Part shown: positions 14,731-34,059 of the stretch, piece after piece
Layout of the letters: every line of letters starts with the position of its first letter
How positions within the stretch are numbered: the first letter of the stretch is position 1
DNA from: Kutzneria viridogrisea
Lineage (GTDB): Bacteria > Actinomycetota > Actinomycetes > Mycobacteriales > Pseudonocardiaceae
Length of the DNA: 64,000 nt
Assembly (NCBI GenBank): GCA_014138725.1
Contig: JACJID010000007.1
Coordinates: forward strand, 124,001 to 188,000
Direction of reading: 5' to 3'
The notes under the pieces: generated by a model
What the model saw: the letters and a program-made list of their open reading frames with translations, nothing else
Databases searched by the model: none
What the model was told of the DNA's origin: nothing
Program-made: the position numbers and the translations under genes

Positions 14731-15882
14731 ATGACGACGAAGAAGGTCGGGGTGGGTATGGACATGACTGTGCGGACCTCCAAGGACGTAGCCTCCGTCG
14801 ACGGGAACGGGGACGGACACTCCGGCGGCGTCCCACTGAGTGGGGGTGCCCGAGCATCGGCGCCGGGCGAGTCGGTGGCCCCTCTCAAGGTCGTCGTTCG
14901 GGTCCACGCGTTTCCGCCGGAGTTCAACGCGGGCAGCGAGCACATGCTCATCAACATGCTGCGACCTCTGGTCGAGCGCGGCCATGACGTCACCGTGTGG
15001 CTGTCGCGACTCGGAACCGCCACGGAGGTGTACGAGTACCGGGGCATCCGGGTGGTGCCCTTGCAGGCACGGCTGGACTTCCCGTCGGCCGTCCGGCAGG
15101 CCGACGTGCTGATCTCGCATTTCGAGTGCGTGCTGTCCACGGGGTCACTGGCCCGCAGCTACGGCAAACCACTGGTCGTGGTGTGCCACAACACCCACCG
15201 GTCGACGTTCCGGGAAGCCGCCGCGGGAGGCGCCGCGCTGGCGGTCTACAACTCACAGTGGATGCGGGTGGAGGCGGAACTGTTCTTCGCTGACTATCCC
15301 GCGTCGGTCCGCCCGGCCAACGAACTGGTGGTGCGTCCGCCGGTGGTCGCCGCCGACTACGCGGTGGACAAGCCCGGCGACCGGATCACCCTCGTCAACT
15401 GCAACCCGGACAAGGGCGGCCACGTTCTGGAACAGCTCGCCAAACGCATGCCGGACACCAAGTTCCTCGCCGTGACCGGCGCCTACGGGTGGCAGGTCAT
15501 TCCCGACCTGCCGAACGTGGAGGTCCTCGAGCACGTCCCGGGCGAGGAGATGCGGGAGAGGGTTTACGCCCGGACCCGGGTGCTGCTCATGCCCAGCTCC
15601 TACGAGTCGTGGGGCCTCACCGGAGTGGAGGCCCTCGCCTCCGGCCTGCCCGTGGTGGCGCACCCCACGCCGGGACTGTGCGAATCCCTCGGCGATGGCG
15701 GGATCTTCGTGGACCGCGACGACCTCGCCGGCTACGAGGCGGTCCTACGGAAACTCGACACCGCCGCGGAGTACCACCTGGCGTCCAAGCGGGCCAAAGC
15801 CCGGTCCGCCGAACTGGACACAGCGGCCGACCTGGCCGCCTGGTGCACTGCCGTGGAAGCTTTGGCCTACAAGAACTCCTAA
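14731..15882 (+). CDS. Glycosyltransferase, GT4-type (GT-B fold)
   Basis: 383 residues. A GT-B transferase: N-terminal domain from about residue 52 (LKVVVRVHAF), C-terminal domain with the E-x7-E region SYESWGLTGVEALASGLPV (about 292-310), which binds the sugar nucleotide phosphate. The first 50 residues look unstructured. The ATG at 14731 has AGGAG only one base away, so the in-frame ATG at 14758, after a G-rich stretch, may be the true start. It is followed 38 bases on by a GT2 enzyme. Probably adds a sugar to the 7-deazapurine product; donor and acceptor unknown. Confidence 0.85.
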   Translation: MTTKKVGVGMDMTVRTSKDVASVDGNGDGHSGGVPLSGGARASAPGESVAPLKVVVRVHAFPPEFNAGSEHMLINMLRPLVERGHDVTVWLSRLGTATEVYEYRGIRVVPLQARLDFPSAVRQADVLISHFECVLSTGSLARSYGKPLVVVCHNTHRSTFREAAAGGAALAVYNSQWMRVEAELFFADYPASVRPANELVVRPPVVAADYAVDKPGDRITLVNCNPDKGGHVLEQLAKRMPDTKFLAVTGAYGWQVIPDLPNVEVLEHVPGEEMRERVYARTRVLLMPSSYESWGLTGVEALASGLPVVAHPTPGLCESLGDGGIFVDRDDLAGYEAVLRKLDTAAEYHLASKRAKARSAELDTAADLAAWCTAVEALAYKNS

Positions 15883-15920
15883 CAGAATGGCAGTTTTCTT
15901 TGACGAAACGGTGCCCGGCA

Positions 15921-17288
15921 ATGAATCTTCCGGTAATTGCAGTCGTCATTTTGGCACGTAATCGACAGGCATATATCGACATGGTTCTCGCGCGATTGCG
16001 CGAGCAGGACCTTCCCCTAAGCTCCTTCCGGGTCATCCTTGTCGACAACGGTAGCTCACCTTCGCTGCAACCGGTAGCCCAGCTTTACGACTCCACATTG
16101 CCACTCACATATATTCGGCTAGAAGACGACATCTCCAGGGCGGCGGCCCGAAACCGAGGGCTCACGGAGGTTGTCGAACCCAATGTTCTTTTTCTGGACG
16201 GTGACACCCTACCCGATGTCGATCTGATCAGGCAGCATTTGGAGACCCTCGAGGATGGTCAGGCCGCGGTAAGTCTTGGAGCTCGCAGGGAACCGAGGCG
16301 GAGAGCGCTGTTCGACCGGACGTCAACTACGCATGGTGATTATGAGTCGTTTGCGGCGCTGCATGCGGAGGCATGGCAGGATACACGCGTTCCCGATATC
16401 AACTTGCCGGTGATTCAAGCAAACTTCGACCGCATTGCGTACCGCTTCTTCTTCAGCCACAATGTCGCGATGCGGACCGCAGTGGCCACCGCGGTCGATG
16501 GGTTCAATGAAAAGCTCTCCGGGTGGGGGCTGGAAGATCTCGAATTTGGCTTCCGCGTGAAAGAGCAACTTCGAGATGGTGAGCTGATTCGATGGTCGCC
16601 ACGGGCCGGATCGGCCCATGTCCCCCACTTGCGAGATTTCGCGCGCAACTCCAACGAAATCAAGTCCAACCAGAAGTTTCTGTTGGCGACGTACAAGTCT
16701 TTTCATTGGGAAGGGCATTGGTTCGCGCCGCCGAGCCTGGAGTGCCTTCGCATCATCATGCTCGAACGGATTGCCGAAAAGATCCAGGCGCGGACTGTCG
16801 CGAGAAGTCATGACCTTATGGAGATCGAGAAGTGGGTCGACCGCGATCGGTCCAGGAACTCGTGGTTACTCAGCACTGGACACGTACAAGGTTGGGATAC
16901 CGTGCCAACAGGTCGCCGTTCCAACCTCAGTGACTGGCGCGATCGAACCGTGCCAAGCTTCTGCGGGACGCAGCTTCCCTCAGATGACTCTTCGGCATGC
17001 GATGTCATCAACATTGATATTTGGCGCGTACTGCCGTGGCATCATGTGTCCGAGATCCTGGCTGAGGCGCTACGTGTAGGCGAGACCGCCTGTTTCGTGG
17101 CCACAGCACAGCATGACGCGGACTTTTCGAGCTTGGAAGCCGCAGTTGATGTTCAAGACTCGTGTTTCGTTCGGGATGCGGAATGGATAGCCGACGGGAT
17201 CGGCGAGTTGGGCCTTGCCCACGAGATCCTTCGCACACCGTCGATGATCGCTGTGCGCGTGTCAAAGGCGAGGTCAAGTGCTTCCTAG
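15921..17288 (+). CDS. GT2-family glycosyltransferase with C-terminal Rossmann-like extension
   Basis: 455 residues from the ATG at 15921. GT-A core: VILARNRQAY, VILVDNGSSP, SRAAARNRGL and the DxD-type LFLDGDTLPD; GWGLEDLEFGFRVKE (about 200-214) is the acceptor/base region of galactosyltransferase-like GT2 enzymes. The last 130 or so residues form a separate degenerate methyltransferase-like domain, as in its paralogue at 19660. No strong ribosome-binding site is seen. Base composition is visibly less GC-rich than in neighbouring genes, hinting at separate origin. It likely extends the sugar chain. Confidence 0.82.
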   Translation: MNLPVIAVVILARNRQAYIDMVLARLREQDLPLSSFRVILVDNGSSPSLQPVAQLYDSTLPLTYIRLEDDISRAAARNRGLTEVVEPNVLFLDGDTLPDVDLIRQHLETLEDGQAAVSLGARREPRRRALFDRTSTTHGDYESFAALHAEAWQDTRVPDINLPVIQANFDRIAYRFFFSHNVAMRTAVATAVDGFNEKLSGWGLEDLEFGFRVKEQLRDGELIRWSPRAGSAHVPHLRDFARNSNEIKSNQKFLLATYKSFHWEGHWFAPPSLECLRIIMLERIAEKIQARTVARSHDLMEIEKWVDRDRSRNSWLLSTGHVQGWDTVPTGRRSNLSDWRDRTVPSFCGTQLPSDDSSACDVINIDIWRVLPWHHVSEILAEALRVGETACFVATAQHDADFSSLEAAVDVQDSCFVRDAEWIADGIGELGLAHEILRTPSMIAVRVSKARSSAS

Positions 17289-17317
17289 GTGCGTGCTTCG
17301 GCACGCGGTGACAACCA

Positions 17318-17339
17318 CTTCGGGGCCAACCGTGATGTG
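17318..17339 (+). promoter_or_regulatory. Cluster upstream element before the queC remnant and phyH
   Basis: CTTCGGG-N5-CCGTGATGTG. The right half equals that before the intact queC, and a queC fragment follows, so this copy probably came with the queC cassette. Confidence 0.6.
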
Positions 17340-17372
17340 TGGCCGCCACCGCGCGGCCAGAATTGGAATTCG

Positions 17373-17456
17373 TCCCCCTCCCCCGGCCACCACGTCAGGC
17401 AGCCTGCGCGGGCGACGGTGGTACCCAACCCTAACGCCGTCTTCACCAAGGCCGAT
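17373..17456 (+). pseudogene. Decayed queC fragment
   Basis: In one frame the sequence reads PGHHVRQPARATVVPNPNAV, against DGHYAEQSMRATVVPNRNAV in the intact queC at 30.3-31.0 kb, and the nucleotides match closely over about 40 bases. Neither the PP-loop nor the zinc site remains. It sits between an upstream element and the phyH gene, showing that a queC cassette once lay here. Confidence 0.75.
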
Positions 17457-17473
17457 CGAAAGAGGTGTACAAT
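17441..17473 (+). promoter_or_regulatory. Probable phyH promoter (TACAAT -10)
   Basis: TACAAT at 17468-17473 matches a -10 box and recurs at the same place before the phyH remnant at 29220. A weakened upstream element (CTTCACC-AAGG-CCGATCGAAA) precedes it. Transcription would start close to the ATG at 17490, giving a very short leader. Confidence 0.45.
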
Positions 17474-17489
17474 TCTTATCACCGATGAT

Positions 17490-18260
17490 ATGAGGACCTC
17501 GTTCCGACAGGATGGCTATCTGGTCGTCCCGAACGTCCTGAGTGCGGCGCAAATCGCGAAAGCTCGTCGTGCTCTCGCCGAGATGGAAAGGAGCGAAACG
17601 CACACCCTTCAGAAGGGTGATGTCGAGGCCCTGCGGGAGGGCCGCGGCGGATACTACATCTGGCACCAGTCATTCATAAGGCAGGAGTCGCGTAGCCTTC
17701 TTGACCTGTACACGGAAACAGGTATCGGAAAACTTGCCGACCAACTTTTGCGGTCCGACATTCCAAGCACTCAACCCCGTGTTGCACAAGTGGTGGTGAC
17801 CGTACCACCATGGCCGGGTCACGGACCACAGCGCGTCCCTCATTTCGACGGCCCAATGCTCATTCCAGGCACTTGGGAACCCACCTCTTTTTCCCTGTTG
17901 GCAGGCGTGTGGCTGACTCAGCACGAGCTTTCCTCCAGCGGAAATCTGCTGGTTTGGCCGGGTACGCATCTTCGATTTGGAGAGTACCTGGCAGAGCGCG
18001 GCGCCGATTCCATCGCGGACACGGACGCGATGCATGAGGGACCCTATCCGAAGATCGAACTGGGGGATCCGGTACCGGTGACCGTGGCTGCCGGATCCGT
18101 GTATTTCGCTCACTATCTCCTTGCTCATGAAGCCGGAAAGTTCATCGATCCGACTGGAGATCGGCGGGAAACCGTGTACTACCGGTTGAATGCAGAACGT
18201 CACGAGTCCAATTGGCGTCAGGCCGTAACTGAACCTTTGTCGGAGTTCGCGTCGGCGTGA
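17490..18260 (+). CDS. Phytanoyl-CoA dioxygenase (PhyH)-like Fe(II)/2-oxoglutarate oxygenase
   Basis: 256 residues from the ATG at 17490. The facial triad is visible: His118 and Asp120 in VPHFDGPM, distal His213 in YLLAHEAGKF, with Arg225 or Arg232 to bind 2-oxoglutarate (GDRRETVYYR). A predicted -10 box lies only 16 bases before the ATG and no ribosome-binding site is seen, so translation may be nearly leaderless. It stands between the GT2 gene and the convergent MFS gene. It probably hydroxylates or otherwise oxidises a sugar or base of the product. A truncated copy exists at 29.2 kb. Confidence 0.85.
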   Translation: MRTSFRQDGYLVVPNVLSAAQIAKARRALAEMERSETHTLQKGDVEALREGRGGYYIWHQSFIRQESRSLLDLYTETGIGKLADQLLRSDIPSTQPRVAQVVVTVPPWPGHGPQRVPHFDGPMLIPGTWEPTSFSLLAGVWLTQHELSSSGNLLVWPGTHLRFGEYLAERGADSIADTDAMHEGPYPKIELGDPVPVTVAAGSVYFAHYLLAHEAGKFIDPTGDRRETVYYRLNAERHESNWRQAVTEPLSEFASA

Positions 18261-18400: not shown

Positions 18401-19663
18401 TCATGTCCGCGGTCGCGTCCCGACTTCGGTGGGAGTGACCTCAGCCTCCGCCGGCAGTTTCCTGATGGCCGGTGTGCTGAGCGCAACCATCGCGGACAGC
18501 AGTTGGATCCCTGCGGCCAACCACAGCGTTGAGTACACGCCGATCGCAGCGGCAACAGGGCCGACCAAGGCCTGGCCGATGGGCTGGCAGGCCACCGAGC
18601 CAAAGTTGGCGTACGCGTTCACTCGGGACAGCTTGTCCCCGGGGATGTTCCGTTGCAGAGTTGTGGCCCACACGGAGCTGAAGATGGCAACGCCGATGCC
18701 GGCGACAAACGCGAGGGCACACAGCAGCAGGAGTGGGAGCTGAAGCGCCAGCCCGAGTGTGGGCAACGCGCCGATCGTCAGAGCCAGGATGCCCGTGCGC
18801 AGCGGCCTTTCGGAGTGGACATGCATGGCGACCATCCCGCCTACGAAGAGCCCCACGCCAAGAACGGCGTTCATCGAGGCCCAGGCCGCTGGGCCACCCA
18901 GATCCCGCTTCGCGAGCAACGGGCCGAGCACCGCTATCCAGGAAAGCAGGAGGTTGCCGAGCGAGGAGGTCGCAACTGTCATCCACAGCCAGGTCCTGCC
19001 GCGGAACTCGCTCCATCCCTCGCGGAGGTCGTGCGTGAACGAGTTCTTCGTAGTAGGCAGTTGTCTCTCGATCGGTATCACGGAGAGCATGAGCGCACTG
19101 ACGCCGAAGGTCGCCGCGTCAACGGCGATCGCCCACCCCGGTCCGGACAGAGCCACGAGCAGGCCCGCTAACGCCGGACCCGCGATGCCGCCACCAGAGA
19201 ACGCCATTCCGCGCAATCCGTTGGCCTGCTGGAGGAGCTCGCCAGACAGCAGCGAGGGAACGAGCCCGGCGGAGGCCGGGTCGAAGGCGGCGCTCGCCAT
19301 GCCCTGCACCGCCTGGAGGGCTGCGAGCTGCCATATTTGGGCGTCGCCGCTGAGGAGCAGCACTGCCACGGTGCCCTGACTCGCGAAGCGGACGAGGTCG
19401 GCCGTCACCATGATCCGTCGGCGCGGGAACCGGTCCGCCATCACTCCGCCGATCAGCAGGGTCGCGACCATGGGGACGGCGCGCGCGGCCAGGACGAAGC
19501 CCAGGTCGCTGGCCGACCCGGTCAGGTCCAGCACCGCGAACGACAGAGCGACGGCCGTCATGCCGTCACCGAGTAGGGAGGTGGCCTCCCCGATGAAAAA
19601 CCGACGGAAGGTTCTCTCCCGCAAGACCGACCATGCCGTCAACCAGTTCTCCTTGGTCTTCAC
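18401..19663 (-). CDS. MFS exporter
   Basis: 420 residues, about twelve hydrophobic segments; the motif GGVMADRFPRRR in the loop between segments 2 and 3 is the MFS motif A. GTG start at 19663 overlaps the stop of the GT2 gene by four bases (GTGA). It is the third gene of the GT4-GT2-MFS unit headed by the element at 22238. In a biosynthetic cluster this is most likely the product exporter and self-resistance pump. Confidence 0.88.
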   Translation of the reverse strand: MKTKENWLTAWSVLRERTFRRFFIGEATSLLGDGMTAVALSFAVLDLTGSASDLGFVLAARAVPMVATLLIGGVMADRFPRRRIMVTADLVRFASQGTVAVLLLSGDAQIWQLAALQAVQGMASAAFDPASAGLVPSLLSGELLQQANGLRGMAFSGGGIAGPALAGLLVALSGPGWAIAVDAATFGVSALMLSVIPIERQLPTTKNSFTHDLREGWSEFRGRTWLWMTVATSSLGNLLLSWIAVLGPLLAKRDLGGPAAWASMNAVLGVGLFVGGMVAMHVHSERPLRTGILALTIGALPTLGLALQLPLLLLCALAFVAGIGVAIFSSVWATTLQRNIPGDKLSRVNAYANFGSVACQPIGQALVGPVAAAIGVYSTLWLAAGIQLLSAMVALSTPAIRKLPAEAEVTPTEVGTRPRT

Positions 19664-20952
19664 AACAATGCTTCGGTGGCCGTCCGAACCTTGTCGGCCG
19701 CCAGCCAGCGGGTGTCGACGTGGCGGCCGATGCGATGGGCCTCGTCGAGGATCCAATTGCCCCAGCGATCCCAGACGCCGGACAGCCGGGAGGTGACGAG
19801 GACGTGGTCCACAGACTGGTCCGCGAGCGGAGTGCGGACGCCCAGTGCATGGCGCACCCTCCCGCCGGATGGGGAAGGCCCCGCGAGTGACCCGTCGAAG
19901 TCGAACAGTTCCGCGCTGGGCAGCCCTTCGGGCAAAACGGGGCCACATCCGAACACCGCGACGCGGGTGCCCGCTGGAAGCTCTCGGAGCGCAGCCAGTT
20001 CGTTCGTGACCACGCTTCCGCGGGCCTGCTCGGCGGCGCGCAGGACGAGGAGGTACTCGTCCTCCACGTTCCAGTCGTGGCTGATCTCGAAGTGGTCGCG
20101 CGGTTCGGCGAACCACGCCCACAGCAACTCGGTCACCGGCTCCGGGTGCTTGCGGGCCATCATGAGCACGTTTTCGGCGCCGCTGCTCAGGTCGTCCTCG
20201 ACGGATCTCTCATGCGGAGTGTCGAGCGCCCACGCGTCCCTGCTCACGGTGAAGGCCGTGCCCCTGCGGTGGAGCCGGTAGCCGAGGTCCAGATCTTCGC
20301 CGCCCCAGCTGCGGAAGTCCTCGTCGAAGCCGCCGACCTCCCAGAAGTCCGCCGCTCGCACCGAACAGTTGAGGGACCAGAACCACTGCCACGGGACGAC
20401 AGCGGTGCCCAGGTCGAAGCCGAACCGTTCGAATGCCAGGTGGCGTACGTCCTGGAAACCGATCTGGTGACCGTGGCGGCGGACGATCTCCTCGGGAGTC
20501 CTCGGCAGACCGGTGGCCGATCGCGGCAGTGGATCGGCGTCGGGACGATAGCCGTACGTGTAGCCGACCACGGCCCGGGTCTGCCCGGCCGGCGGGGCTG
20601 AGTGGGCGGCGAGGTGGGCGCGGACGAAGCCGGCCCCGGGCCGTACGCCGGCGTCCAGGAAGACCAGTACCGGTGCCGAGGCCAGCCGTGCCCCCGCGTT
20701 GCGGGCCGCGGCAGCCCGGAAGCCTCGATCCTCCTGGAACCAGTAACCGAGGTCGAGTCGGTGCTCGAAGTCCCGCACGACCGACCGAGTTTCGTCGGCC
20801 GAACCGTCGTCGGCGACGATGACCTCGAAGCCGCCCCCGTCCGGCGGCTGCTGCGCGGCGAGGGCGGCCAAGCTGCCGCGCAGCAACTCCGCGCGGTTGT
20901 AGGTCGGGATGATCACCGAGACCTGAGCCCCGGTACGGCGGCGCGCCGGCAC
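19660..20952 (-). CDS. GT2-family glycosyltransferase with C-terminal Rossmann-like extension
   Basis: 430 residues, GTG start. GT-A core: VSVIIPTYNRAELL, VIVADDGSADE, AAAARNAGARL, LVFLDAGVRP and SWGGEDLDLGYRLH. After about residue 310 a degenerate methyltransferase-like domain follows (TRVAVFGCGPVL; SVDHVLVTSRLSGVWDRWG). This layout is shared with the enzyme at 15921, so the two are paralogues. It starts two bases after the stop of the GT4 gene upstream. Probable sugar transfer onto the growing glycoside. Confidence 0.85.
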   Translation of the reverse strand: MPARRRTGAQVSVIIPTYNRAELLRGSLAALAAQQPPDGGGFEVIVADDGSADETRSVVRDFEHRLDLGYWFQEDRGFRAAAARNAGARLASAPVLVFLDAGVRPGAGFVRAHLAAHSAPPAGQTRAVVGYTYGYRPDADPLPRSATGLPRTPEEIVRRHGHQIGFQDVRHLAFERFGFDLGTAVVPWQWFWSLNCSVRAADFWEVGGFDEDFRSWGGEDLDLGYRLHRRGTAFTVSRDAWALDTPHERSVEDDLSSGAENVLMMARKHPEPVTELLWAWFAEPRDHFEISHDWNVEDEYLLVLRAAEQARGSVVTNELAALRELPAGTRVAVFGCGPVLPEGLPSAELFDFDGSLAGPSPSGGRVRHALGVRTPLADQSVDHVLVTSRLSGVWDRWGNWILDEAHRIGRHVDTRWLAADKVRTATEALL

Positions 20953-20954: not shown

Positions 20955-22151
20955 CTACGCCCTGCCTGGAGCTGTGGCTGGAGTCAGGGAGCCAGCGGTG
21001 ATGCGCAGGAAGTTCTCCGCGACCGCGGCGGAGGACTGGTCGCTGACTTGGTGCAGGGCTTGGGCTGATGCCGCGTGGTAGGCGTCCGCGTTGTCCAGCA
21101 GTTCAGCGGCGGCCTGCCAGAGGCGGGCGGCGTTGTCGGCGAAGTCGACCGCCTCCAGTGTGTTGCCCGTTAGCAGGGACGAGCGGCCGAGCCCACTGAG
21201 TACGTCGAGGTCCACCAGTCGCCCTGCGCCGCCGACCAGCACCGGAAGGTGGCCGAAGCGGTAGGCCACGACAGGGGTGCCCACGGACAACGATTCCGCC
21301 GCCACGTTGCCGAACGTCTCCGGCCTGGTCGACGGCACCAGTGTCAGTGCGGCCTCAGCGAGAAAGGGCTGCACTCCCAGCCAGGGGATGGCGGGAAGCA
21401 CCTCGACGTTGGGAAAAGCGGCCGCACGTGCACGGCACGCGTTTATCAACTCCGTCTGCATCCCGCGCCCCAGTTCGAAGGCCGCCGCCGCGAGCACGAT
21501 CTGCACCGGTCGCCCGAAGCCCTCGGGAAGCGCGTTGAGAAGTTCCGCGATGCCCTTGTACGGATCAGCCCTGGCCACGATCCGCACCGGACCGGTGCGG
21601 CGTAGGCGCTCGCGCTCGTCGTGGCACGGGGCCTGGCCGGTGCTCGGCAGGGCGTTGGGCAGCGCGTGCCAGCCGGTTGTGTCGAGTCCGGTGCGCGCTG
21701 CCTCGTCGATCAGGAAGGGGCTGACCGCGAGGACGGCGTCGGGACGCTGGGCCAGACTGCGTCGCATGTGGTCGTCCTCCCGGAGGAAGTGCACCATGAG
21801 CGCGGTACGGACACCGGGCGGTGCCGGGCTGAGGAAACCAAGTCCCACAACGGCGTCGGCCCAGCAGACCACGTTGATGTCGTGGGCGGTGAGGATCTCC
21901 AGCACCTCCCTGCGCACCGGCTCCGGGTCCGCGAAGAGCTGGGGCAGGTCGTCGAACAGCAACGGGTGCGGCAGGTGCAGCGATGCGAGCCGGACCAGGT
22001 CGTGCTCGTCCTCGGCGCGGGGCGGCCCGGCCGCGATGATCAGAGCGCGGTGGCCGATCTCGCGCAGTCCGCTGGCGAGTGACGCGACGGCACGCTCGAT
22101 TCCCGCGGGTTCATCGGAACTGTGGGTCAGTAGGACGAAGGCGACGTTCAT
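20955..22151 (-). CDS. Glycosyltransferase, GT4-type; paralogue of 26123..27232
   Basis: 398 residues, ATG at 22151. GT-B fold: opening MNVAFVLLTHSSDEPAGIER and the C-terminal donor site TRPETFGNVAAESLSVGTPV with the E-x7-E spacing. It is closely related along its whole length to the GT4 gene at 26123 (MNIAFVLLTHDPDEPAGIER; TGPESFGNVAAEALSVGTPV). It carries about 30 extra residues near the C-terminus. It leads the GT4-GT2-MFS unit, with a cluster element 87 bases upstream of its start. Confidence 0.87.
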   Translation of the reverse strand: MNVAFVLLTHSSDEPAGIERAVASLASGLREIGHRALIIAAGPPRAEDEHDLVRLASLHLPHPLLFDDLPQLFADPEPVRREVLEILTAHDINVVCWADAVVGLGFLSPAPPGVRTALMVHFLREDDHMRRSLAQRPDAVLAVSPFLIDEAARTGLDTTGWHALPNALPSTGQAPCHDERERLRRTGPVRIVARADPYKGIAELLNALPEGFGRPVQIVLAAAAFELGRGMQTELINACRARAAAFPNVEVLPAIPWLGVQPFLAEAALTLVPSTRPETFGNVAAESLSVGTPVVAYRFGHLPVLVGGAGRLVDLDVLSGLGRSSLLTGNTLEAVDFADNAARLWQAAAELLDNADAYHAASAQALHQVSDQSSAAVAENFLRITAGSLTPATAPGRA

Positions 22152-22313: not shown

Positions 22314-22342
22314 TTGACAGCGGATCTGGGCCACGACATACT
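22314..22342 (+). promoter_or_regulatory. Promoter of the 22.4-kb methyltransferase
   Basis: TTGACA (22314-22319), a 17-base spacer and CATACT (22337-22342) form a good vegetative promoter 55 bases before the likely ATG. Confidence 0.6.
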
Positions 22343-22397
22343 GGATTCCACCTGTTTCGATATTCAGCCTCTCAGGATGGAAGACCGAAAGGGAAGT

Positions 22398-23165
22398 ATG
22401 GTCGACAACATGCGGAGGTGTGATGAGATACCCGATTCCACGATTGTGCCGGTAGCTGCCGGGGCGCCGCGCCGGTCGATGCGGGAGACTTTCACGAGAA
22501 TCTACGAGAGCAGAGTCCCCGCACCGGTCGACAACGGCACCACCGGGAACGACACCGAATCCTGTTCGGGCACGGGGTCGAATCTGGCCCAGACCGCGGC
22601 GGTTCGCACCGAACTGCCGGCCCTGGTGGCCGATCTCGGCGTCAGCAGCTTCCTCGATGTACCCTGCGGGGACCTGTTCTGGATTTCCACGATCGAACTC
22701 GGTGTCGACGCCTACCTCGGCGCCGACATCGTTCCCGGGCTGATCGAGCGGAACCGGGACCGCTTCGCGCACTCGAACCGTGAGTTCCGGGTCATCGACC
22801 TCACTCGGGATCAGCTTCCGCGGGTGGATCTGATCTTCTGTCGCGACTGCCTCGTACACCTCCACGACGAGGACGTCCACCGGGCGCTGGCCAACATCAA
22901 GCGGAGCGGTTCAACATTCCTCGCGATGACCACCTTCACCGAGCGAACCGAGAATGCCGACGTCATCGAGACCGGAGCCTGGCGCCCGCTCAACTTCCAA
23001 CTCGCGCCCTTCCGCCTGCCTGAGCCTTTCCGGCTGATCAACGAGCGCTGCACCGAGGTCGACGTGACCACCGAGAACGGCGTGCGGGTCGAACACCGCT
23101 ACGCCGACAAGTCGATCGGCGTTTGGCGTATCGCCGAAATCCCCACAGCGACCTCACCGACCTGA
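22398..23165 (+). CDS. Class I SAM-dependent methyltransferase
   Basis: 255 residues from the ATG at 22398 (AAAGGGAAG just upstream); starts at 22377 or 22314 are possible, but 22314 overlaps the predicted -35 box. SAM-binding motif I is FLDVPCGDLFW, motif II YLGADIVPGL, and post-motif FCRDCLVHLHDED. The family acts on small molecules, sugars or lipids. It is divergent from the GT4-GT2-MFS unit and ends at a strong hairpin. It is a candidate O-methyltransferase for the glycoside. Confidence 0.8.
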   Translation: MVDNMRRCDEIPDSTIVPVAAGAPRRSMRETFTRIYESRVPAPVDNGTTGNDTESCSGTGSNLAQTAAVRTELPALVADLGVSSFLDVPCGDLFWISTIELGVDAYLGADIVPGLIERNRDRFAHSNREFRVIDLTRDQLPRVDLIFCRDCLVHLHDEDVHRALANIKRSGSTFLAMTTFTERTENADVIETGAWRPLNFQLAPFRLPEPFRLINERCTEVDVTTENGVRVEHRYADKSIGVWRIAEIPTATSPT

Positions 23166-24351: not shown

Positions 24352-24386
24352 GTGAGCCGCTCCCACCGCCGTCAGGAGCGGCTCAC
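24352..24386 (-). terminator. Hairpin at the end of the carbamoyltransferase gene
   Basis: GTGAGCCGCTCC (24352-24363) and GGAGCGGCTCAC (24375-24386) are perfect 12-base arms with an 11-base loop that contains the carbamoyltransferase stop codon. It probably ends the queD-queE-folE-GT4-carbamoyltransferase transcript. Confidence 0.6.
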
Positions 24387-26122: not shown

Positions 26123-27232
26123 TCACGGGGTGCCGACGGTGGTAGCGCGCAGGAACTCCCGCGCCACCGCGGTCGGAGTGTGCGCGGCGACCTGCTGTGG
26201 CCCCTGCCGTGCGGCGGCGTGATAGGCCACGCGGTCGCCGAGCAGTTGCGCCAGCGCACACCACAACTGTTCGGCCCCTGCGGCCAGATCGACTGTCCGG
26301 CCGGCCTCACCGGTGAGCGTCGCGAGGAACCCCAGGCCGTGGCTGACCACCGGAGTGCCCACCGACAGGGCCTCGGCGGCGACGTTGCCAAAGCTCTCCG
26401 GACCGGTCGAGGGGACGGCGGCAACGGCAGCATCGGCGAAGAACGGCTGGACCTCCCGCCAGTCCACGGCCGGCAGGACCCTGACGTCGGGAAGGGCGTC
26501 GGCCAGCGCCCGGCACTCGTCGAGGACCTGGTCCTGCATGCCGCGCCACCACTCGAACCGGGCAGACGCGAGGACGATCTCCAGCGGTCGGCCCAGTTCG
26601 CGGCCCGGATGGGCGCGCAACAGCTCGGCGACCCCCTTCTGCGGATCGGCCCGTGCCACGACCCGCACCGGGCCGGTGAGCCTCAACTGTTCGCGCCGAT
26701 CCGGTCCGGGTGGATCGACGAACCGGGGCAGCGCGTTGGGCAGCGCCTGCCAGTTGTCGCAGTCCAACCCGGCCCGCCTGGACTGGTCGATCAGGAAGTC
26801 GCTGACGGCGAGGACGGTGTCGGGACGGTGGCTCAGGCTCTGTTGCATGGCTTGGTCGGCGCGCAGGAAGTGGACCATCAGGGCGCGGCGCACGCCGGGC
26901 GGCGCTGGGCTGAGGTAGCCCAGGCCCGCGACCGCGTCGGCCCAGACCACCAGATCGACCTGGTGCTCGGCCAGCACCGACCGTACCTCCTGCTCCACGG
27001 GAGCCGGGTCGGGCAGCAGGGTCAACAGCTCATCGACCAGCATCGGTCGAGGTAGTGAGATGGAGTGCAGGCGCACCAGGTCAGGAGGGTCGTTCTGGCT
27101 GGCCGGACCGGCGGCCACGATCAGGGCACGGTGGCCCAGTTCGCGCAGACCGCAGGCGAGTGAGTCGACGGCCCGCTCGATGCCGGCGGGTTCGTCCGGG
27201 TCGTGGGTCAACAGGACGAAGGCGATGTTCAC
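26123..27232 (-). CDS. Glycosyltransferase, GT4-type; paralogue of 20955..22151
   Basis: 369 residues, GTG start at 27232, 34 bases after the folE stop. GT-B fold with the C-terminal donor motif TGPESFGNVAAEALSVGTPV. It is nearly colinear with the GT4 at 20955 (shared SPAPPGVR, ALMVHFLR, PNALP and RIVARADP-type blocks), so one arose by duplication of the other. Encoded directly behind the preQ0 genes and before the carbamoyltransferase, it is the best candidate to attach the first sugar to the 7-deazapurine; that is inference. Confidence 0.88.
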   Translation of the reverse strand: MNIAFVLLTHDPDEPAGIERAVDSLACGLRELGHRALIVAAGPASQNDPPDLVRLHSISLPRPMLVDELLTLLPDPAPVEQEVRSVLAEHQVDLVVWADAVAGLGYLSPAPPGVRRALMVHFLRADQAMQQSLSHRPDTVLAVSDFLIDQSRRAGLDCDNWQALPNALPRFVDPPGPDRREQLRLTGPVRVVARADPQKGVAELLRAHPGRELGRPLEIVLASARFEWWRGMQDQVLDECRALADALPDVRVLPAVDWREVQPFFADAAVAAVPSTGPESFGNVAAEALSVGTPVVSHGLGFLATLTGEAGRTVDLAAGAEQLWCALAQLLGDRVAYHAAARQGPQQVAAHTPTAVAREFLRATTVGTP

Positions 27233-27266: not shown

Positions 27267-27866
27267 TCACCGTCGCCCCGACAGGGCCGGGAAGGCGGTG
27301 GCCATCAACTCCTGACGGGCTGGTCCGTCCTGGCCGAAGACTCCGTTGAGCACTGAGGAGGTCATCAGGGCCGGGGTGCGGATGCCGCGCATGGTCATGC
27401 ACAGGTGCTCGCCCTGCGCGATGACCGCCACGTCGGGCGACCCGCTGACCGCGGTGATCTCCTCGGCGATGTCCTGCACCAGGCGCTCCTGGATCTGCAG
27501 CCGGTGGGCGTGGCGATGAGCGATCCTCGCGAACTTCGACAGGCCCAGCACGTCGCCGTTGGGCCGGTAGGCGATGGTGACGGTGCACGAGAACGGCAGC
27601 AAGTGGTGCTCGCACAACGACCACAGGTGGATGTCCGAGACGGTGACGGTCTGTCCCTGCTGGGTGCGCAACGAGAAGAGGGTGTTGACCTCGCCCGCGT
27701 CGTACCCGCTGAACTCCCGCCACCAGCGGGCGAATCGGGCCGGGGTCTGCTTCAGGCCGTCCCGGTCGGGATTCTCGCCGATCGCGATGAGCAGTTGGCG
27801 GGCCACGTCCTCCAACGGGTCCCGGCCCTCCCCGGCTGGGTCCGGGTATGTCGTGCTGGTTGTCAC
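27267..27866 (-). CDS. folE: GTP cyclohydrolase I (type IA)
   Basis: 199 residues from a GTG at 27866, with AGGAGG upstream inside the end of queE and the queE stop only two bases before it. Zinc ligands are visible in SLCEHHLLPF (Cys and His) and HLCMTMRGIR (Cys); the substrate motif LGLSKFARIAHRHAHRLQIQ is intact. It converts GTP to 7,8-dihydroneopterin triphosphate, the first step to preQ0. Its place between queE and the glycosyltransferase shows a pathway-dedicated copy, not the housekeeping folate enzyme. Confidence 0.95.
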   Translation of the reverse strand: MTTSTTYPDPAGEGRDPLEDVARQLLIAIGENPDRDGLKQTPARFARWWREFSGYDAGEVNTLFSLRTQQGQTVTVSDIHLWSLCEHHLLPFSCTVTIAYRPNGDVLGLSKFARIAHRHAHRLQIQERLVQDIAEEITAVSGSPDVAVIAQGEHLCMTMRGIRTPALMTSSVLNGVFGQDGPARQELMATAFPALSGRR

Positions 27867-27868
27867 GC

Positions 27869-28591
27869 CTACTTCCCCCTCCTGTCGCCCCACACGGCGA
27901 CGTGCAGTCTGGTGGTGAGGTTCCAGCCCCGGGCGATCACGGCGTCACCGAGCGCGGCCAGGCGCAGGCTCAACTCCTCCGGCGTGCGCCCCTCAGGCAT
28001 GATCCACACCGGCGTGGTTCCGTAGTGCTCGACGACATCCGCCACCTCGGCGAGGTCCTCCGGGCTCCGGCAGACGAACTTGAAGGCGGTCCCCGGCATC
28101 GCGGCGAGCGCGGCCAGGGCCCGTGGGACGAGCCGACGTGCCGCCGGATCACCCGAGTGCGCCAGCTTGGGCGAGACGTTGAACCGGACGCCGAGAGCGG
28201 CCAACTCGGACAACGGCTCGATGGTCCCGTTGGTCTCGATCTCGACGCGGTGGCCGGTGCCGGTGAGTGCGTGCAGCAGTGGCAGCAGGCGGTTCTGCTG
28301 GCTGAGCGGCTCGCCGCCGGAGATGACGACCAGCGGCACCGCGTACCCGCTGAGCCGCTCCAGCACCGCACGCCAGGCCATCGGGTGCAGCTCCGCACGG
28401 GGACTGTGCGCGATCCCGGAGTCGCCGACCCCGGTCCAGTCCCAGGTGTAGGGGGTGTCGCACCAGCGGCAGGACAGGTTGCAGCCCCCGAGCCGGACGA
28501 ACGCGCAGCGCTGTCCCGCGGAGGGCCCCTCTCCCTGTACGGTCCCTCAAGTGGGGCCGAAGATCTCGTTCACGACGAGCTTCGACTCCAT
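27869..28591 (-). pseudogene. queE: 7-carboxy-7-deazaguanine synthase gene with in-frame TGA at codon 15
   Basis: The frame from the ATG at 28591 has 240 codons and encodes a radical-SAM QueE: cluster motif CNLSCRWC (CX3CX2C), SGGEPL and EIETNGT are all present. Codon 15 (28547-28549) is TGA. Relatives read FGPTVQGEG here; this gene reads FGPT-stop-GTVQGEG, so nine extra bases (TTGAGGGAC) break the conserved loop without shifting frame. No ATG, GTG or TTG lies between the TGA and the cysteine motif, so restart cannot give an active enzyme. Either the gene is dead, or a sequence error or stop readthrough is involved. It would make CDG from carboxy-tetrahydropterin. Confidence 0.85.
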
Positions 28592-28638: not shown

Positions 28639-29004
28639 TCACGGTCGGTACTCCGCCCAGGTCTTGGCGGTCTCGCTGACGCGCACCGAACTGAGCTCCG
28701 GGAAGCGCGGCAGCCATCGCTCGTACAGCCATCGCGCCAGGTTCTCGGCCGAGGGGTTGCGATCGGCGAGCAGGTCGTTGAGGTGTCGGTGGTCGACCTC
28801 CTCGTCAAGCCACCGACGGAACGGCGCGAGGTCGCCGTAGTCCCGGACGAAGCCGACTCCGTCCAGGCCGTCCGCCGCTGCGGACAGTTCCAGTTCGACG
28901 ACGTAGTTGTGCCCGTGCAGCCGCCCGCACGGATGCTCCTGGGGCAGGCCGTCGAGCCGGTGACTGGCTGAGAAGTGGAATTCCTTGCTGATCCGATACG
29001 CCAT
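28639..29004 (-). CDS. queD: 6-carboxy-5,6,7,8-tetrahydropterin synthase
   Basis: 121 residues, typical length. Zinc ligands His15 (FSASHRL), His30 and His32 (LHGHNY); catalytic Cys26 in HPCGRLHGH; DHRHLND and PSAENLARWLYE complete the active site. The Cys and motif spacing fit QueD and not mammalian PTPS. ATG at 29004 after CAGGAGG. It makes 6-carboxytetrahydropterin from dihydroneopterin triphosphate. It leads the queD-queE-folE-GT4-carbamoyltransferase unit, with a cluster element 42 bases upstream. A decayed copy lies at 14.3 kb. Confidence 0.95.
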   Translation of the reverse strand: MAYRISKEFHFSASHRLDGLPQEHPCGRLHGHNYVVELELSAAADGLDGVGFVRDYGDLAPFRRWLDEEVDHRHLNDLLADRNPSAENLARWLYERWLPRFPELSSVRVSETAKTWAEYRP

Positions 29005-29390: not shown

Positions 29391-30281
29391 TCACAGCACC
29401 GAAGCCGTCGACGTGTGGGGGCGGGCGATCAGGACGGCGCCCTGGTCCCCGATGGCGTGCGGGCGGTGCGCGAAGTGCTCGCGCAGTGCGGGTGCGATCG
29501 ACTGCCGCATCTCCTCGGCCCTGGGGTGACCTTCGAACCAGAAGTTGACCAGGACGGCCGCCGCCGCCGCTACCCGGCCGTCCAGGTCGGGTTCGGGGAA
29601 GTGCAGCGCGGCTTCGGTGCGGTGCACCGTGAAGCGCGAAAAGCCGTAGTCGGCAAGCACCTCGGCTGCTGTGGCCAGCAGGAAACCCTGGTGGTCCTGG
29701 GGTTCGTCCGCCAGCGGCACGCAGGTTCGGTTGAGCAGTTCCACGAGCTCGTTGTCGGGGGCGCCGCCGATCAACACGATCTTGGCCTCGGGATGGCTGG
29801 GGTCGCAGACCCGCGCGATCTCGCGAGCGGACCGCTCCAGATCGTCGACGTAGGGCAGAATCCACGCGGCGAGGACCGCATCGAAGGACTCGTCCGGAAA
29901 GGGCAGCGCCTCGGCCCGGCCGGGATGGACATCGAGCGTGCCCGTCCGACCGACCTCGGGTCCGCGCAGCGTGGCCACCCGGCTGCCGTGGGGTTCGACC
30001 GTCGTGCAGTGGCCGAGCTGCTCGGCAATGGCACGGGTCAGTTCGCCGGTGCCGCCACCAACGTCAAGCACGGCGTGGTTGGCGTCGGTGGCGGCGCAGG
30101 CCAACGCGATCTCCTCGCGGCGTTCGAGCCGGTCGGCGAAGTCCACCCAGCCGTCACGGCTGAGCTGGTGCGGGCCCCGGTAGTGGGCGGGCATGCGGTC
30201 GAGCGGTCCGCACAGGGGGTGGGTGCGGACACCCTCGGCGTCGAGAGGAGTCACCGCTGTCCGGGATGTTCCCATGCTCAT
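29391..30281 (-). CDS. Class I SAM-dependent methyltransferase
   Basis: 296 residues from the ATG at 30281 (GGAG 7 bases upstream). SAM motif I VLDVGGGTGELTRAIA (about residues 72-87), acidic motif II CTTVEPHGSRV, then the Methyltransf_11 core ALPFPDESFDAVLAAWILPY. It follows queC after 37 bases, so the two are cotranscribed. It could methylate the deazapurine or a sugar hydroxyl; sequence does not decide. Not related in detail to the methyltransferase at 22.4 kb. Confidence 0.85.
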   Translation of the reverse strand: MSMGTSRTAVTPLDAEGVRTHPLCGPLDRMPAHYRGPHQLSRDGWVDFADRLERREEIALACAATDANHAVLDVGGGTGELTRAIAEQLGHCTTVEPHGSRVATLRGPEVGRTGTLDVHPGRAEALPFPDESFDAVLAAWILPYVDDLERSAREIARVCDPSHPEAKIVLIGGAPDNELVELLNRTCVPLADEPQDHQGFLLATAAEVLADYGFSRFTVHRTEAALHFPEPDLDGRVAAAAAVLVNFWFEGHPRAEEMRQSIAPALREHFAHRPHAIGDQGAVLIARPHTSTASVL

Positions 30282-30318
30282 GTGCGTTCTCCTTGGCATA
30301 GAAGCGATGCGGGGGCCG

Positions 30319-31035
30319 TCACGGAGCGGCGAACAGTGTCACGTCGTCCACGTACCGCGTCGGGTCCGCCACGCCTGCGACGCGGAACGCCTCGCGCCGC
30401 TCGTAGCAGGTTCCGCAGGTTCCACAATGCAGTTCACCGCCCTTGTAGCAGGACCAACTGAGGCCCAGCGGAGCGTTGAGGCGCGTTCCGTGCGTGGCGA
30501 TGTCGGCCTTGGACCAGTTCAGGAACGGCGCTTCGAGCTGTGGGGTGGGGAAACCCTCGTTGGCCACCGCCACCAGTTGCCGAAGCGCGGTGTGGAACTC
30601 GGGGCGGCAGTCCGGGTAGATGAAATGGTCGCCGGTGTGCATCCCCAGGGCTACTGTCCCGGCCCTGCGCGCGACCCCGACTGCCACGGCGACGTTCGCG
30701 AGAACCGCGTTGCGGTTGGGTACGACCGTCGCACGCATCGACTGCTCCGCGTAGTGCCCGTCGGGAACCGGGACGCTGGCGTCGGTGAGGGCGGATCCAC
30801 CGAGCACGGCGCCCAACCCGCTGAGGTCCACGAGCAGGTGCTCGGCTCCGTAGTGGGCGGCGACCTGGCTCGCGGAGTCGATCTCCCGGCGATGCCGCTG
30901 CCCGTAGTCCACCGTCACGGCGATGAGGTCGTGGTGCAGGGCGGCGTAGTGCGCCATGAGCGTGGTGGAGTCCATGCCGCCCGACAGCACGACCACCGCG
31001 GTGAACGAGTCGGGTGTGTTGTTGTCCTGATCCAT
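30319..31035 (-). CDS. queC: 7-cyano-7-deazaguanine (preQ0) synthase
   Basis: 238 residues. ATP PP-loop SGGMDST at 18-24, the conserved VVPNRNAVL, GDHFIYPDCR and the C-terminal zinc site CYKGGELHCGTCGTCYER are all present. It converts CDG, ammonia and ATP to preQ0. It starts the queC-methyltransferase unit, with a cluster element 77 bases upstream. No queF, tgt or ToyJKL-type gene lies nearby, so the product probably keeps the nitrile or goes to another 7-deazapurine, not queuosine. Confidence 0.95.
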   Translation of the reverse strand: MDQDNNTPDSFTAVVVLSGGMDSTTLMAHYAALHHDLIAVTVDYGQRHRREIDSASQVAAHYGAEHLLVDLSGLGAVLGGSALTDASVPVPDGHYAEQSMRATVVPNRNAVLANVAVAVGVARRAGTVALGMHTGDHFIYPDCRPEFHTALRQLVAVANEGFPTPQLEAPFLNWSKADIATHGTRLNAPLGLSWSCYKGGELHCGTCGTCYERREAFRVAGVADPTRYVDDVTLFAAP

Positions 31036-31135: not shown

Positions 31136-31188
31136 GACCACGGGCACCGGGCCGAGACGAGCCGGAGGATCTCATGTGGTGGAACGTT

Positions 31189-34059
31189 TCACCGGGGATC
31201 CGGTACGCCGTCGGTGAGCAGCGGCCACAGCCCGGGATTGCGGAACAGTTGGGGGAAGTCTCGGCGCCCGGTGATGCCGAGCTTGCGGTACGCGCTCGAC
31301 AGGTGCAGTTCCACGGTGCGGCGGGTGATCCGCCGGGCCGCAGCGATGCGCTCATTGGTCCGGCCGCGCATCGCGTCGATCAGGGTCTGCCGCTCCCGTG
31401 GGCTGAGCGTCAACACGCCACGCAGCGAGAAGTCCTGGTGAGTGCGATCGCTCGCCGCCGCCAACTGCTGCCGTCCCCGCTCGGCCAGCGACCGGGCTCC
31501 GCAGGAGCTGGCCAGCCGGACCGCCCGGGTCAACGCGGCGACCGCCTCCTTGGGCCGGTCCAGTCGGTTCAGCAGGGTGCCCATGTCGCCAAGGGCATAC
31601 GCCAGGTCGAGTTCGCCCTTCGCCTCCTCCAGCAACCGCACCGCCGTCCGCAGCAGGCGCTCGCCCTCCGTGCCACCGGACACCCGGCCCAGCACCCACC
31701 GGGCCCGGCCGCGCTCCTGCGGCGAGCCGATCGTCTCGGCGTACCGCAGTTGGTCTCGGGCGAGTTCCGCGGCCTGTTCGCTCTGCCCCACCTGCTCCAG
31801 CAACTCCACTCCATGCGCCCGCCAGGACGCGGCCGAGACCGCGCGCAGTCCCGCGGCCTCGTTGCGGTCGCGCAGTTCGGCGAGGTCGCGCGCCGCGCGC
31901 GCCAGGTCTCCCTCAGCGGCCCACAGCCGAGCCCGGCACACCAGCAGATCCCGGTAGCGCCAGCCCGGCGGTAGGTTCTGCGCGCAGCGGCCTTGCCGCA
32001 GCAGCTCCTTGGCCCGGTTGTGCTCGCCCTGGCAGATCAGGACGTCCAGCAGCTGCCCCACCACGTCCAGACGGATTGGGTGAACCGGGCTCACGCCGTG
32101 GCGGACGAGGTGAGCCAGGCAGTCCTCCAACTGATCACGAGCGCTGGAGAGTTGGCCCCGGGTGCGGACGTGATGCGCCGCCACCGGAAGCAGCAGCACC
32201 TGGTGCAGCGGCTGCGACCCGGGAGAGTCGGGCTCGGTGTGTCGACGCAGGTGTGCGGTCGCCTCCTCCTGGTACCCGTTGTCCACCAGTACGGTCAGTG
32301 CCGCCGCCAGGGCCAGCGGGTGCAGGTACAGCTCCTCGGTGCCGCAGGCCAGGGCCCCGCGCGCGCCCTCGACGGCCGCCCGCGGGTCGTCACCGGTCAG
32401 ATGCCGGCAGAACGCCGCCGCGGCCGTCGCCGCAGCGCGCAAGCCGCCCGGCGGGCCCTCGAGCAGTTCGCCGAGCCGCTCAGCGGTCACGGCTGGCGGG
32501 GCGTCGTGGAGGTCAGCGAGTATCCGGTGCAAACGGGGCCACTCGGCGACGGCGGTCCCGGCCACGGCTGCCGCCACTGCCTCCAGCACCCGTTGCTCGC
32601 CCTCGGGCCGGTCCGCGCCGTGCAACAGCGATCCGATGCGCCGCAACAGACTGCTGCGGGTGGCAGCGTCGGCTGTTTCGGCCAACGCCTCGATCGCCTG
32701 CGCCAAGCCATTGCCCTGGTCAAGCCGGATGCGCAGGTCGACCAGGGCCAGCACAGCCACCCGGCGCTCGTCGCCGGTGGCCACCCGCACGGCGTGTTCC
32801 AGGCAGCGGGCGGCAGCGGTGGTGTCCTGCGCGGCCAGCGCGGAAGCAGCGGCATCGAGCAGCACCGAGGCCGGCCAGGAGTCGTCCAGCGAGACCGCGG
32901 AGGCGGTGAGGTGGTCGGCGATGCGGCTCGCGGGGGCGTGCCGCTCGTGCAGAAAGGTGGCGGCGGCCAGGTGCGCCGCATTGCGAGCCATCCGGCTCAT
33001 CCCGCCGATCAGGGCGGTGCGCAGCAGGGGGTGGCGCAGTCGCACCATGTCGTCATCCGCCACGAGTCGCATCCGGACCAGCAGATCCGCGGTGATGAGG
33101 GTTTCCCCCGTGGTCATCCCGCACAGATGAGCCACCAGGGGCGGTTCGGCGCCGTCCCGTCCGCCGGCCACGGCAATGGCCCGGATCAGCCGCCCGGCCG
33201 CCGGATCGATCCGGCTCAGCCGCCCGGTGATCAGATCCGCGACGACGGGCAGTACCGCGGTGTCGAGGTGCTCCGGGCGCACGGCCGCACCACCGTTGTC
33301 CCGAACCCAGCGGGCCAGCTCGACCAGCATGAAGGGGTTTCCCGCGGTCAGCCGGTGGCAGGCGGCGGAGAAAGCGCTATCCCGCAACCGCGGCAGCAGG
33401 ATGCCCAGCAGGGCAGCCGTTTCCGCCGGGGACAGCCCGTCAAGGGTGAGCCGCTGTGCGCCGGACAGCAGTTGGGCAACTGCTGTGGGCGCCTGCGGGG
33501 GCTCACCCAGGCGTAGCGAGGCCACCAGCAGCACCGGTAGGTCGGCGCACGCCTCCACCACGCTGCGCAGGTGGGCCAGCGCGGTGTCGTCGGCCTGGTC
33601 AGCGTGGTCCATGATGAGGATGAGCGGAGCCGTCACGGTCAGGTGGACGATCGCGGCGCGCACTGCGGACACGAGCGCGGTGTCCAGGTTCGGCAGAGCT
33701 GTGTGCCTCCCCCACTGCCGCTCGGACGCCGCGTGAAGTTCCGCGACATGCACGCTGTCCGCCGGAAGGCTCCGAGCCAGTGCCCGGACGAGAAGGCCGC
33801 ACGGCTGCTTCGAACCGTGAAAGTGCACTGTCGTACTTCCGAGGCGGCGGGCGGCGAGCGCGAAGGCGTACAGCAGCGCGGTGCGGCCCACGCCGAGCTC
33901 GCCCTCCACCACGTACCGCACCAGACCGGTCGTCATGCTGTCGCGGCGTGCCTGGTCCAGCAGTCGTAGCTCATGCTGTCGACCGACGAAACCATGCGAT
34001 TGTCCCCGTGGCCTGTGCACTCCCTCGGTTTCCCCACGTTTCGAAAATTCCTCGTTCAT
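31189..34059 (-). CDS. LuxR-family (LAL-type) ATPase transcriptional regulator
   Basis: 956 residues. N-terminal AAA domain with Walker A GELGVGRT at 53-60, where the usual Lys is Arg59, and Walker B LILIMDHAD; TAGNPFMLVELARW is the sensor region. A long helical repeat middle follows. The C-terminal LuxR helix-turn-helix (about 885-945) reads LSPRERQTLIDAMRGRTNER then ITRRTVELHLSSAYRKLGI. It lies directly upstream of queC on the same strand and is the only regulator inside the cluster, so it is the likely pathway activator. The Lys-to-Arg change may weaken ATP hydrolysis. Confidence 0.9.
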   Translation of the reverse strand: MNEEFSKRGETEGVHRPRGQSHGFVGRQHELRLLDQARRDSMTTGLVRYVVEGELGVGRTALLYAFALAARRLGSTTVHFHGSKQPCGLLVRALARSLPADSVHVAELHAASERQWGRHTALPNLDTALVSAVRAAIVHLTVTAPLILIMDHADQADDTALAHLRSVVEACADLPVLLVASLRLGEPPQAPTAVAQLLSGAQRLTLDGLSPAETAALLGILLPRLRDSAFSAACHRLTAGNPFMLVELARWVRDNGGAAVRPEHLDTAVLPVVADLITGRLSRIDPAAGRLIRAIAVAGGRDGAEPPLVAHLCGMTTGETLITADLLVRMRLVADDDMVRLRHPLLRTALIGGMSRMARNAAHLAAATFLHERHAPASRIADHLTASAVSLDDSWPASVLLDAAASALAAQDTTAAARCLEHAVRVATGDERRVAVLALVDLRIRLDQGNGLAQAIEALAETADAATRSSLLRRIGSLLHGADRPEGEQRVLEAVAAAVAGTAVAEWPRLHRILADLHDAPPAVTAERLGELLEGPPGGLRAAATAAAAFCRHLTGDDPRAAVEGARGALACGTEELYLHPLALAAALTVLVDNGYQEEATAHLRRHTEPDSPGSQPLHQVLLLPVAAHHVRTRGQLSSARDQLEDCLAHLVRHGVSPVHPIRLDVVGQLLDVLICQGEHNRAKELLRQGRCAQNLPPGWRYRDLLVCRARLWAAEGDLARAARDLAELRDRNEAAGLRAVSAASWRAHGVELLEQVGQSEQAAELARDQLRYAETIGSPQERGRARWVLGRVSGGTEGERLLRTAVRLLEEAKGELDLAYALGDMGTLLNRLDRPKEAVAALTRAVRLASSCGARSLAERGRQQLAAASDRTHQDFSLRGVLTLSPRERQTLIDAMRGRTNERIAAARRITRRTVELHLSSAYRKLGITGRRDFPQLFRNPGLWPLLTDGVPDPR

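Follow-up and report, generated by a model that had tools for sequence, protein, structure and literature searches.

The queE homologue (huiE) of Kutzneria viridogrisea lies in a 64,000-nucleotide (nt) stretch of contig JACJID010000007.1 (positions 124,001 to 188,000; referred to as the window, with coordinates counted from its first base), within a biosynthetic gene cluster for a 7-deazapurine glycoside that is already known as the huimycin cluster. The new part is queE itself, which is split by an in-frame stop codon at a position conserved among queE genes of other genomes and which is most likely expressed through a natural stop-hop, that is, a short translational bypass of the stop codon. 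We found no description of a split queE in the open-access literature.

The window queE is encoded on the minus strand and reads ATG...AAC GAG ATC TTC GGC CCC ACT TGA GGG ACC GTA CAG GGA GAG. An upstream open reading frame (ORF) of 14 codons (28550..28591, MESKLVVNEIFGPT), read directly from the sequence and preceded by an AGGAGG-type ribosome site (~28601-28608), ends at an in-frame TGA (28547..28549), and QueE sequence resumes 6 nt later at GTA in a downstream part (27869..28540, VQGEGPSAGQRC...) that holds the CxxxCxxC motif. Between the stop codon and the end of this motif there is no in-frame ATG, GTG, TTG or ATH (H, any base except G), only a CTG inside the motif. Read from ACC, the downstream part matches positions 12-237 of the 238 of the QueE model TIGR03365 with 81 bits; the gene falls below the curated cut-offs of both this model (206.1 bits) and Radical_SAM (22.1 bits versus 29.5). 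We assigned it as queE because it shares 61% identity with an annotated QueE gene and is located between queD and folE. The claim of a first-pass annotation that the locus holds a full set of preQ0 genes stands insofar as folE, queD, queC and queE are all present, with the qualification that the last of these is interrupted. Uninterrupted homologues read (I/V)FGPT-(V/I)-QGEG across the junction, and of the three matched QueE proteins of solved structure, 5tgs reads EIFGPT-I-QGEG, the remaining two are one residue shorter there, and none contains an insert. A mutation private to huiE was ruled out since the identical break occurs in other genomes.

The break was present in five of the five other hui-type queE genes first examined. 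We then compared 53 queE sequences, 38 with the NEIFGPT-type motif and 15 without it, the latter being uninterrupted outgroup genes. Among the 38 sequences with the motif, 23 are cut at the same Thr codon and 15 are uninterrupted. The interrupted genes comprise that of the window, 17 from the genus of Streptomyces sp. MP131-18, two from Micromonospora, two from another genus and one from a plasmid of S. chartreusis; they belong to huimycin-, tubercidin- and preQ0-type clusters of four genera. Within the genus of Streptomyces sp. MP131-18, the break was found in 17 of the 29 queE places scoring at least 318 bits and was absent from the remaining 12. Of the 58 places listed for this genus, 24 (23 lower-scoring, one partial) lie outside the set, as do loci L058, L060, L061 and L123 and the queE genes of genomes G688, G693 and G694, which belong to other lineages. 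L124 repeats L042, and L121 repeats the window. Among 18 plasmid records, the break was looked at in two, the other 16 being 50% identical or less. A protein tree of 43 sequences requires at least four gains or losses of the interruption: the uninterrupted L064 falls inside an interrupted group, and the interrupted L081 stands beside an uninterrupted one.

Alignment of the 23 interrupted genes revealed which features of the junction are fixed and which vary. The codon before the break, ACT at 28550..28552 in the window, is ACC in 14 genes and ACT in nine. A stop codon follows directly in 22 of 23 (TGA in 12, TAG in eight, TAA in two); the exception, L054, has AGA, a codon that accounts for only 10 of 492 Arg codons in the compared queE genes. 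The insert measures 5 nt in four genes, 6 in four, 7 in ten, 8 in four and 9 in one, so that its length modulo 3 is 0, 1 and 2 in five, ten and eight genes, respectively, and the relative frame of the two ORFs is unconstrained. In every gene the codon before QueE sequence resumes is NCY (N, any base; Y, C or T), namely ACC in ten, GCC in nine, TCC in two and GCT in two, followed by (V/I/L)QGEG; the resume codon is GTA, GTC, GTT or CTC in 15 genes, GTG in five and ATH in three. All but one of the 23 genes have, 14-15 codons ahead of the stop, a start codon with a Shine-Dalgarno-like site, searched with a permissive pattern. On a tree of the 23 genes, the frame changes six times and the stop-codon state six times, leaving a stop only once (AGA); position 1 of the NCY codon changes six times, position 2 never and position 3 twice, between C and T only, and the third base of the resume codon changes 11 times. 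Both halves of the split gene are under purifying selection: the ratio of nonsynonymous to synonymous polymorphism (pN/pS) is 0.12 upstream of the stop (12 codons) and 0.20 downstream of it (39 codons), as calculated for 21 of the interrupted genes. ACT is in excess at the break, with 9 of 23 codons there, whereas the gene bodies of the 38 motif-bearing sequences use it for 7 of 368 Thr residues (Fisher p ~1e-8, indicative only, as the sequences are related). Over codons 0-5 after the break, A/T third positions (GTA, GGA, GAA, CCT) are in excess compared with uninterrupted homologues. A conserved hairpin around the break found no support: folds of 21 interrupted and 13 uninterrupted sequences, compared by eye, had no common structure, and folding energy downstream of the break did not stand out significantly in a synonymous-codon test (p 0.10).

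On comparative evidence, we consider it likely that the split queE is a conserved recoding device whose halves are joined by programmed short translational bypassing on tRNA-Thr. The ribosome would start at the normal ribosome site and read 14-15 codons to ...NEIFGPT, where it would stall with peptidyl-tRNA-Thr on ACC or ACT while the A site holds the stop codon or, in one gene, the rare AGA. The tRNA would then release its codon and re-pair with the NCY codon 2-6 nt downstream, and decoding would restart at the next codon to give the canonical GPT-V-QGEG of QueE, with the predicted junction peptide ...NEIFGPTVQGEG.... In the window, ACT would serve as take-off codon, TGAGGG (28544..28549) as coding gap and ACC (28541..28543) as landing codon. 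In a variant of this scheme, the NCY codon itself would be decoded and one extra small residue added. We favour a hop from ACY to NCY because it serves all 23 genes and yields the canonical sequence. The presumed carrier, tRNA-Thr, has the anticodon GGU, and the excess of ACT at take-off fits an easier release of the G-U wobble pair. We infer that such a forward hop may also set the amount of 7-deazapurine that is made.

Among the other explanations of the split, termination followed by re-initiation fares best, and we regard it as improbable. In that case, the 14-15 codons would form a leader, after which the ribosome slides and restarts at an NTN codon to produce a QueE lacking its first strand. 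The short distance (5-9 nt) and its independence of frame would suit such a process, as would the A/T-rich third positions after the break, which resemble those at gene starts, and the Prokaryotic Genome Annotation Pipeline (PGAP) places the start of the S. chartreusis gene at the GTG right after the break. However, the 15 resume codons that are neither GTG nor ATH do not provide a start codon, and there is no sign that start codons are selected at this position, although GTG is synonymous for Val. In the window, the stretch devoid of usual start codons extends from the stop through the CxxxCxxC motif. Moreover, the upstream peptide is QueE's own N-terminal sequence and is constrained as such, and the matched QueE proteins of solved structure contain this N-terminal stretch.

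A mixture of known recoding events, with readthrough at inserts of 6 or 9 nt, +1 frameshifting at 7 nt and -1 frameshifting at 5 or 8 nt, each adding residues to the product, appears very unlikely. Each event is of a known kind, and the two ORFs are in frame in 5 of 23 genes, but three mechanisms would have to operate at one site that uses all three stop codons, and they would have to switch between near relatives (L078 has 5 nt where L080 and L082 have 6; L053 has 6 where L054 has 5). Readthrough as the sole mechanism would leave 18 of 23 genes out of frame with a stop, and no single direction of frameshifting is kept; neither a fixed frameshift nor readthrough therefore explains the break, because neither serves all genes. 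Loss of function, with the split genes as pseudogenes or assembly errors and preQ0 either unmade or supplied by another queE, is the least probable account: six of 21 split-queE genomes (G000, G891, G758, G770, G975 and G1093) do have another queE, but the break hits one and the same codon in 23 genes, each from a different genome; purifying selection acts on each half; in 15 of the 21 genomes no queE other than the split one was found; and production has been published for a huimycin locus as well as for a tubercidin cluster whose TubB is short.

The search for second copies (E 1e-8) found no other queE in 15 of 17 genomes, or 15 of 21 once G758, G770, G975 and G1093 were added, G1253 and S. 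chartreusis lying outside that depth of search. A second queE was thus rejected as a general explanation. In the window genome, a prophage (L014, C2:1278000-1296000) encodes at 3501-17641 QueC, QueE, FolE and a QueD-like frame (by eye), together with a queuine-tRNA-ribosyltransferase/DpdA-like protein, DUF6884, a ParB-like protein and a glycosyltransferase, among primase, terminase, portal and capsid genes; this set probably serves 7-deazaguanine modification of phage DNA.

Two published clusters bear on whether split genes are functional. The K. albida locus makes huimycin in S. albus (PMC7439116). Identity between HuiE and ToyC is 50%, compared with 65-72% for the other three preQ0 proteins (PMC7439116), which would fit a truncated annotation of HuiE. 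The published tubercidin cluster is functional in S. coelicolor M1154, and its QueE (TubB) is listed at 139 amino acids (PMC6112128), versus 238 positions in TIGR03365. A cluster of tubercidin type, with genes for GMP reductase and UbiD (L103, Pfam), contains an interrupted queE. In the interrupted L084, a late GTG gives 139 amino acids, a match in length that hints weakly at an interrupted tubB; the hint is weak because L065 and L069 reach the same length from a TTG.

Several points weigh against the hop on tRNA-Thr. The landing codon is an exact Thr match (ACC) in only 10 of 23 genes, and landing on GCC, TCC or GCT requires wobble or mismatch at position 1. L054 carries AGA instead of a stop, and GTG, a possible start, is the resume codon in 5 of 23. 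The resume codon ends in A or T in 12 of 23 interrupted genes versus 1 of 15 uninterrupted ones; the A/T-rich codons are unexplained by a hop and could suggest re-initiation. No conserved mRNA fold was detected over 120 nt (RNAalifold z -1.73 for the 23 interrupted and -1.66 for the 15 uninterrupted sequences). The search profile derives from five interrupted genes and so favours their kin. Another queE is present in 6 of 21 split-queE genomes, including the window's own with its prophage copy, and a need for the split gene can therefore not be argued there. Interruption of K. albida huiE and S. tubercidicus tubB is itself presumed, and the production hosts S. albus and S. coelicolor may carry queE genes of their own.

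The closest known system is phage T4 gene 60, which shares with queE a stop directly after the take-off codon, a non-coding gap, a landing codon and one protein from two ORFs. The gap of gene 60 is 50 nt (PMC5009743), versus a proposed 2-6 nt in queE, where the landing codon often agrees only as NCY, no conserved stem-loop was found within 120 nt, and many bacterial genes rather than one phage gene are concerned. Synthetic stop-hops in E. coli and the mitochondrial byp inserts likewise involve short forward hops over a stop or small blocks, and two-out-of-three pairing has been discussed for byp (PMC5009743). Unlike these, the queE junction occurs naturally and, within one enzyme family of antibiotic clusters, stays at a single codon. 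According to the same review, natural in-frame stop-hops were still unknown in 2016 (PMC5009743). We lean towards the view that queE genes of huimycin-, tubercidin- and preQ0-type antibiotic clusters form a family kept split, with enzyme supply passing through a stop-hop on tRNA-Thr, which would make it the first natural family of short stop-hops on bacterial chromosomes and a candidate for bypassing that serves regulation instead of mending an insert. Natural programmed bypassing is known from very few cases, and the 23 genes, which vary in gap, stop and landing codon, constitute natural tests of what a ribosome hop requires. The break may also be the reason why gene callers shorten these enzymes, to 170 amino acids in the window, counted from the first usual start codon, and to the 139 amino acids listed for TubB (PMC6112128); such shortened calls matter for mining and rebuilding 7-deazapurine clusters.

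The cluster around the split gene had been described in the first-pass annotation as new. We found that its genes follow the order of the huimycin locus published for K. albida DSM 43870, the close match to a characterized cluster against which novelty was to be judged, and the claim of novelty therefore fails. The K. albida locus consists of an Eis protein, two hypothetical proteins, the regulator huiA, huiB (QueC), huiC (methyltransferase), huiD (QueD), huiE (QueE), huiF (FolE), huiG (glycosyltransferase), a carbamoyltransferase (KALB_4074), a PNPOx protein (KALB_4075), a methyltransferase (KALB_4076) and two glycosyltransferases (KALB_4077 and KALB_4078) (PMC7439116). In the window, huiA to huiG are present in this order, and the flanking order of KALB_4064 and KALB_4074-4078 is found as well, so that the two loci agree in the order of twelve genes, huiA through the distal pair of glycosyltransferases, and in the Eis-like flank; the match was judged by protein family rather than by K. 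albida sequence, and the two hypothetical proteins were not matched to window ORFs. The K. albida paper does not mention an interruption of huiE or genes like those at 14731-19663 (PMC7439116).

On the minus strand, the order begins with the huiA homologue, a large AAA/TPR/LuxR-type regulator (31189..34059), and continues through queC/huiB (30319..31035), the S-adenosylmethionine (SAM) methyltransferase huiC (29391..30299; Pfam and huimycin paper), queD/huiD (28639..29004), the split queE, folE/huiF (27267..27893, start uncertain), the GT4-type glycosyltransferase huiG (26123..27232), an O-carbamoyltransferase (24372..26057) at the position of KALB_4074, and, at the position of KALB_4075, a PNPOx-type flavoprotein (23566..24159) that had been overlooked. 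These are followed by a second SAM methyltransferase on the plus strand (22314..23165, start uncertain; KALB_4076 position), by a GT4-type paralogue of huiG (20955..22151, 61% identical), a GT2-type glycosyltransferase (19660..20952) and a major facilitator superfamily (MFS) exporter (18401..19663) on the minus strand, and by a PhyH-type oxygenase (17289..18260, start uncertain), a second GT2-type glycosyltransferase (15921..17288, start about 15921) and a group 1 glycosyltransferase (14731..15882) on the plus strand. The Eis-type acetyltransferase, assigned by protein family as matching KALB_4064, lies on the plus strand at 36082..37356. Pfam bore out all enzyme classes previously named (five glycosyltransferases, the carbamoyltransferase, two methyltransferases, PhyH and the MFS exporter) as well as folE, queD, queC and the LuxR/AAA regulator; gene order additionally supports the assignments at the positions of KALB_4074-4076. 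Nothing in the locus points to tRNA or DNA modification: no tgt/dpdA-type transferase was matched among the 40 window ORFs scanned, such a match occurring only in the separate prophage.

The locus, from a near relative of K. albida within Kutzneria, is thus an m6preQ0-glycoside cluster of the huimycin type. The predicted product type held in its main lines (a natural-product cluster for a methylated 7-deazapurine glycoside built on a preQ0 core), except that it is not undescribed. In K. albida, O-methylation to m6preQ0 has been proposed for huiC, whose loss stopped production; single inactivation of KALB_4074, KALB_4075 or KALB_4076 and deletion of all genes past KALB_4076 still allowed huimycin to be made in S. 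albus (PMC7439116). We therefore consider it doubtful that the locus is a new cluster for a carbamoylated, multiply glycosylated preQ0 oligosaccharide. The carbamoyltransferase and extra glycosyltransferases are present in the window, and GT4 and GT2 homologues are located in related loci, but the locus is the huimycin locus, in which KALB_4074-4076 are dispensable, no carbamoylated product is reported in the huimycin paper (PMC7439116), and the carbamoyltransferase had no match in 9 + 29 = 38 fetched related regions, 12 of them with huiC. A carbamoylated or multiply glycosylated congener is a guess. As a conserved part of the cluster, the carbamoyltransferase was rejected: a first contig scan was empty, and homologues in eight of nine related genomes are 31-38% identical and located elsewhere. 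The tubercidin (tub) and toyocamycin (toy) clusters have the folE/queD/queE module in common with this locus and differ in their tailoring genes; L103, the one tub-type cluster tested by Pfam, had no huiC match.

At the cut-offs used, huiC is rare: in the family sample a single genome among 296 others has it, and in the class sample two among 393 others; a contig scan gave nine loci, seven of them clearly huiC-like (55-68% identity). In four of the nine fetched huiC regions, GT4-type homologues adjoin the core, the copy of Streptomyces sp. NBC_01306 being closer to huiG. A clean split of this family into huiG-type and second-sugar-type enzymes was attempted and rejected, as identities of 58-71% fail to separate them. 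Homologues of the GT2 encoded at 19660-20952 occur in three of nine regions (Micromonospora wenchangensis, Streptomyces zingiberis and Streptomyces sp. MP131-18), all of which also contain an FkbM-type methyltransferase, and that of M. wenchangensis has RmlB-like and RmlD-like genes as well. This M. wenchangensis locus (L041-L042, ~77914-89985 of the contig) comprises huiC, a regulator, GT2, folE, split queE, queD and queC, along with the FkbM methyltransferase, RmlD-like, RmlB-like and GT4 genes. Dapiramicin A combines m6preQ0 with 6-deoxyglucose and 4-O-methylglucose (PMC8450960) and is produced by a Micromonospora (PMC8944786); given these sugars and this origin, the M. wenchangensis locus is a candidate dapiramicin cluster.

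Two further loci depart from the common arrangement. L096 (G1093 C23:142000-160000) has two queC, two huiA-like and three huiC-like matches and one split queE, which suggests a doubled or merged cluster. Streptomyces sp. NBC_01306 (L037) has kept huiC, a huiG-like glycosyltransferase and queC (5366029-5368823 of the contig), with only a fragmentary queD match and no match to queE or folE in the 40 kb fetched, suggesting a decayed or salvage-type locus. In the window, the GC content of 16000-18000, over the GT2 and PhyH genes, is 58%, versus 65-73% in the other 2-kb windows, and this stretch is probably a recent arrival in the locus.

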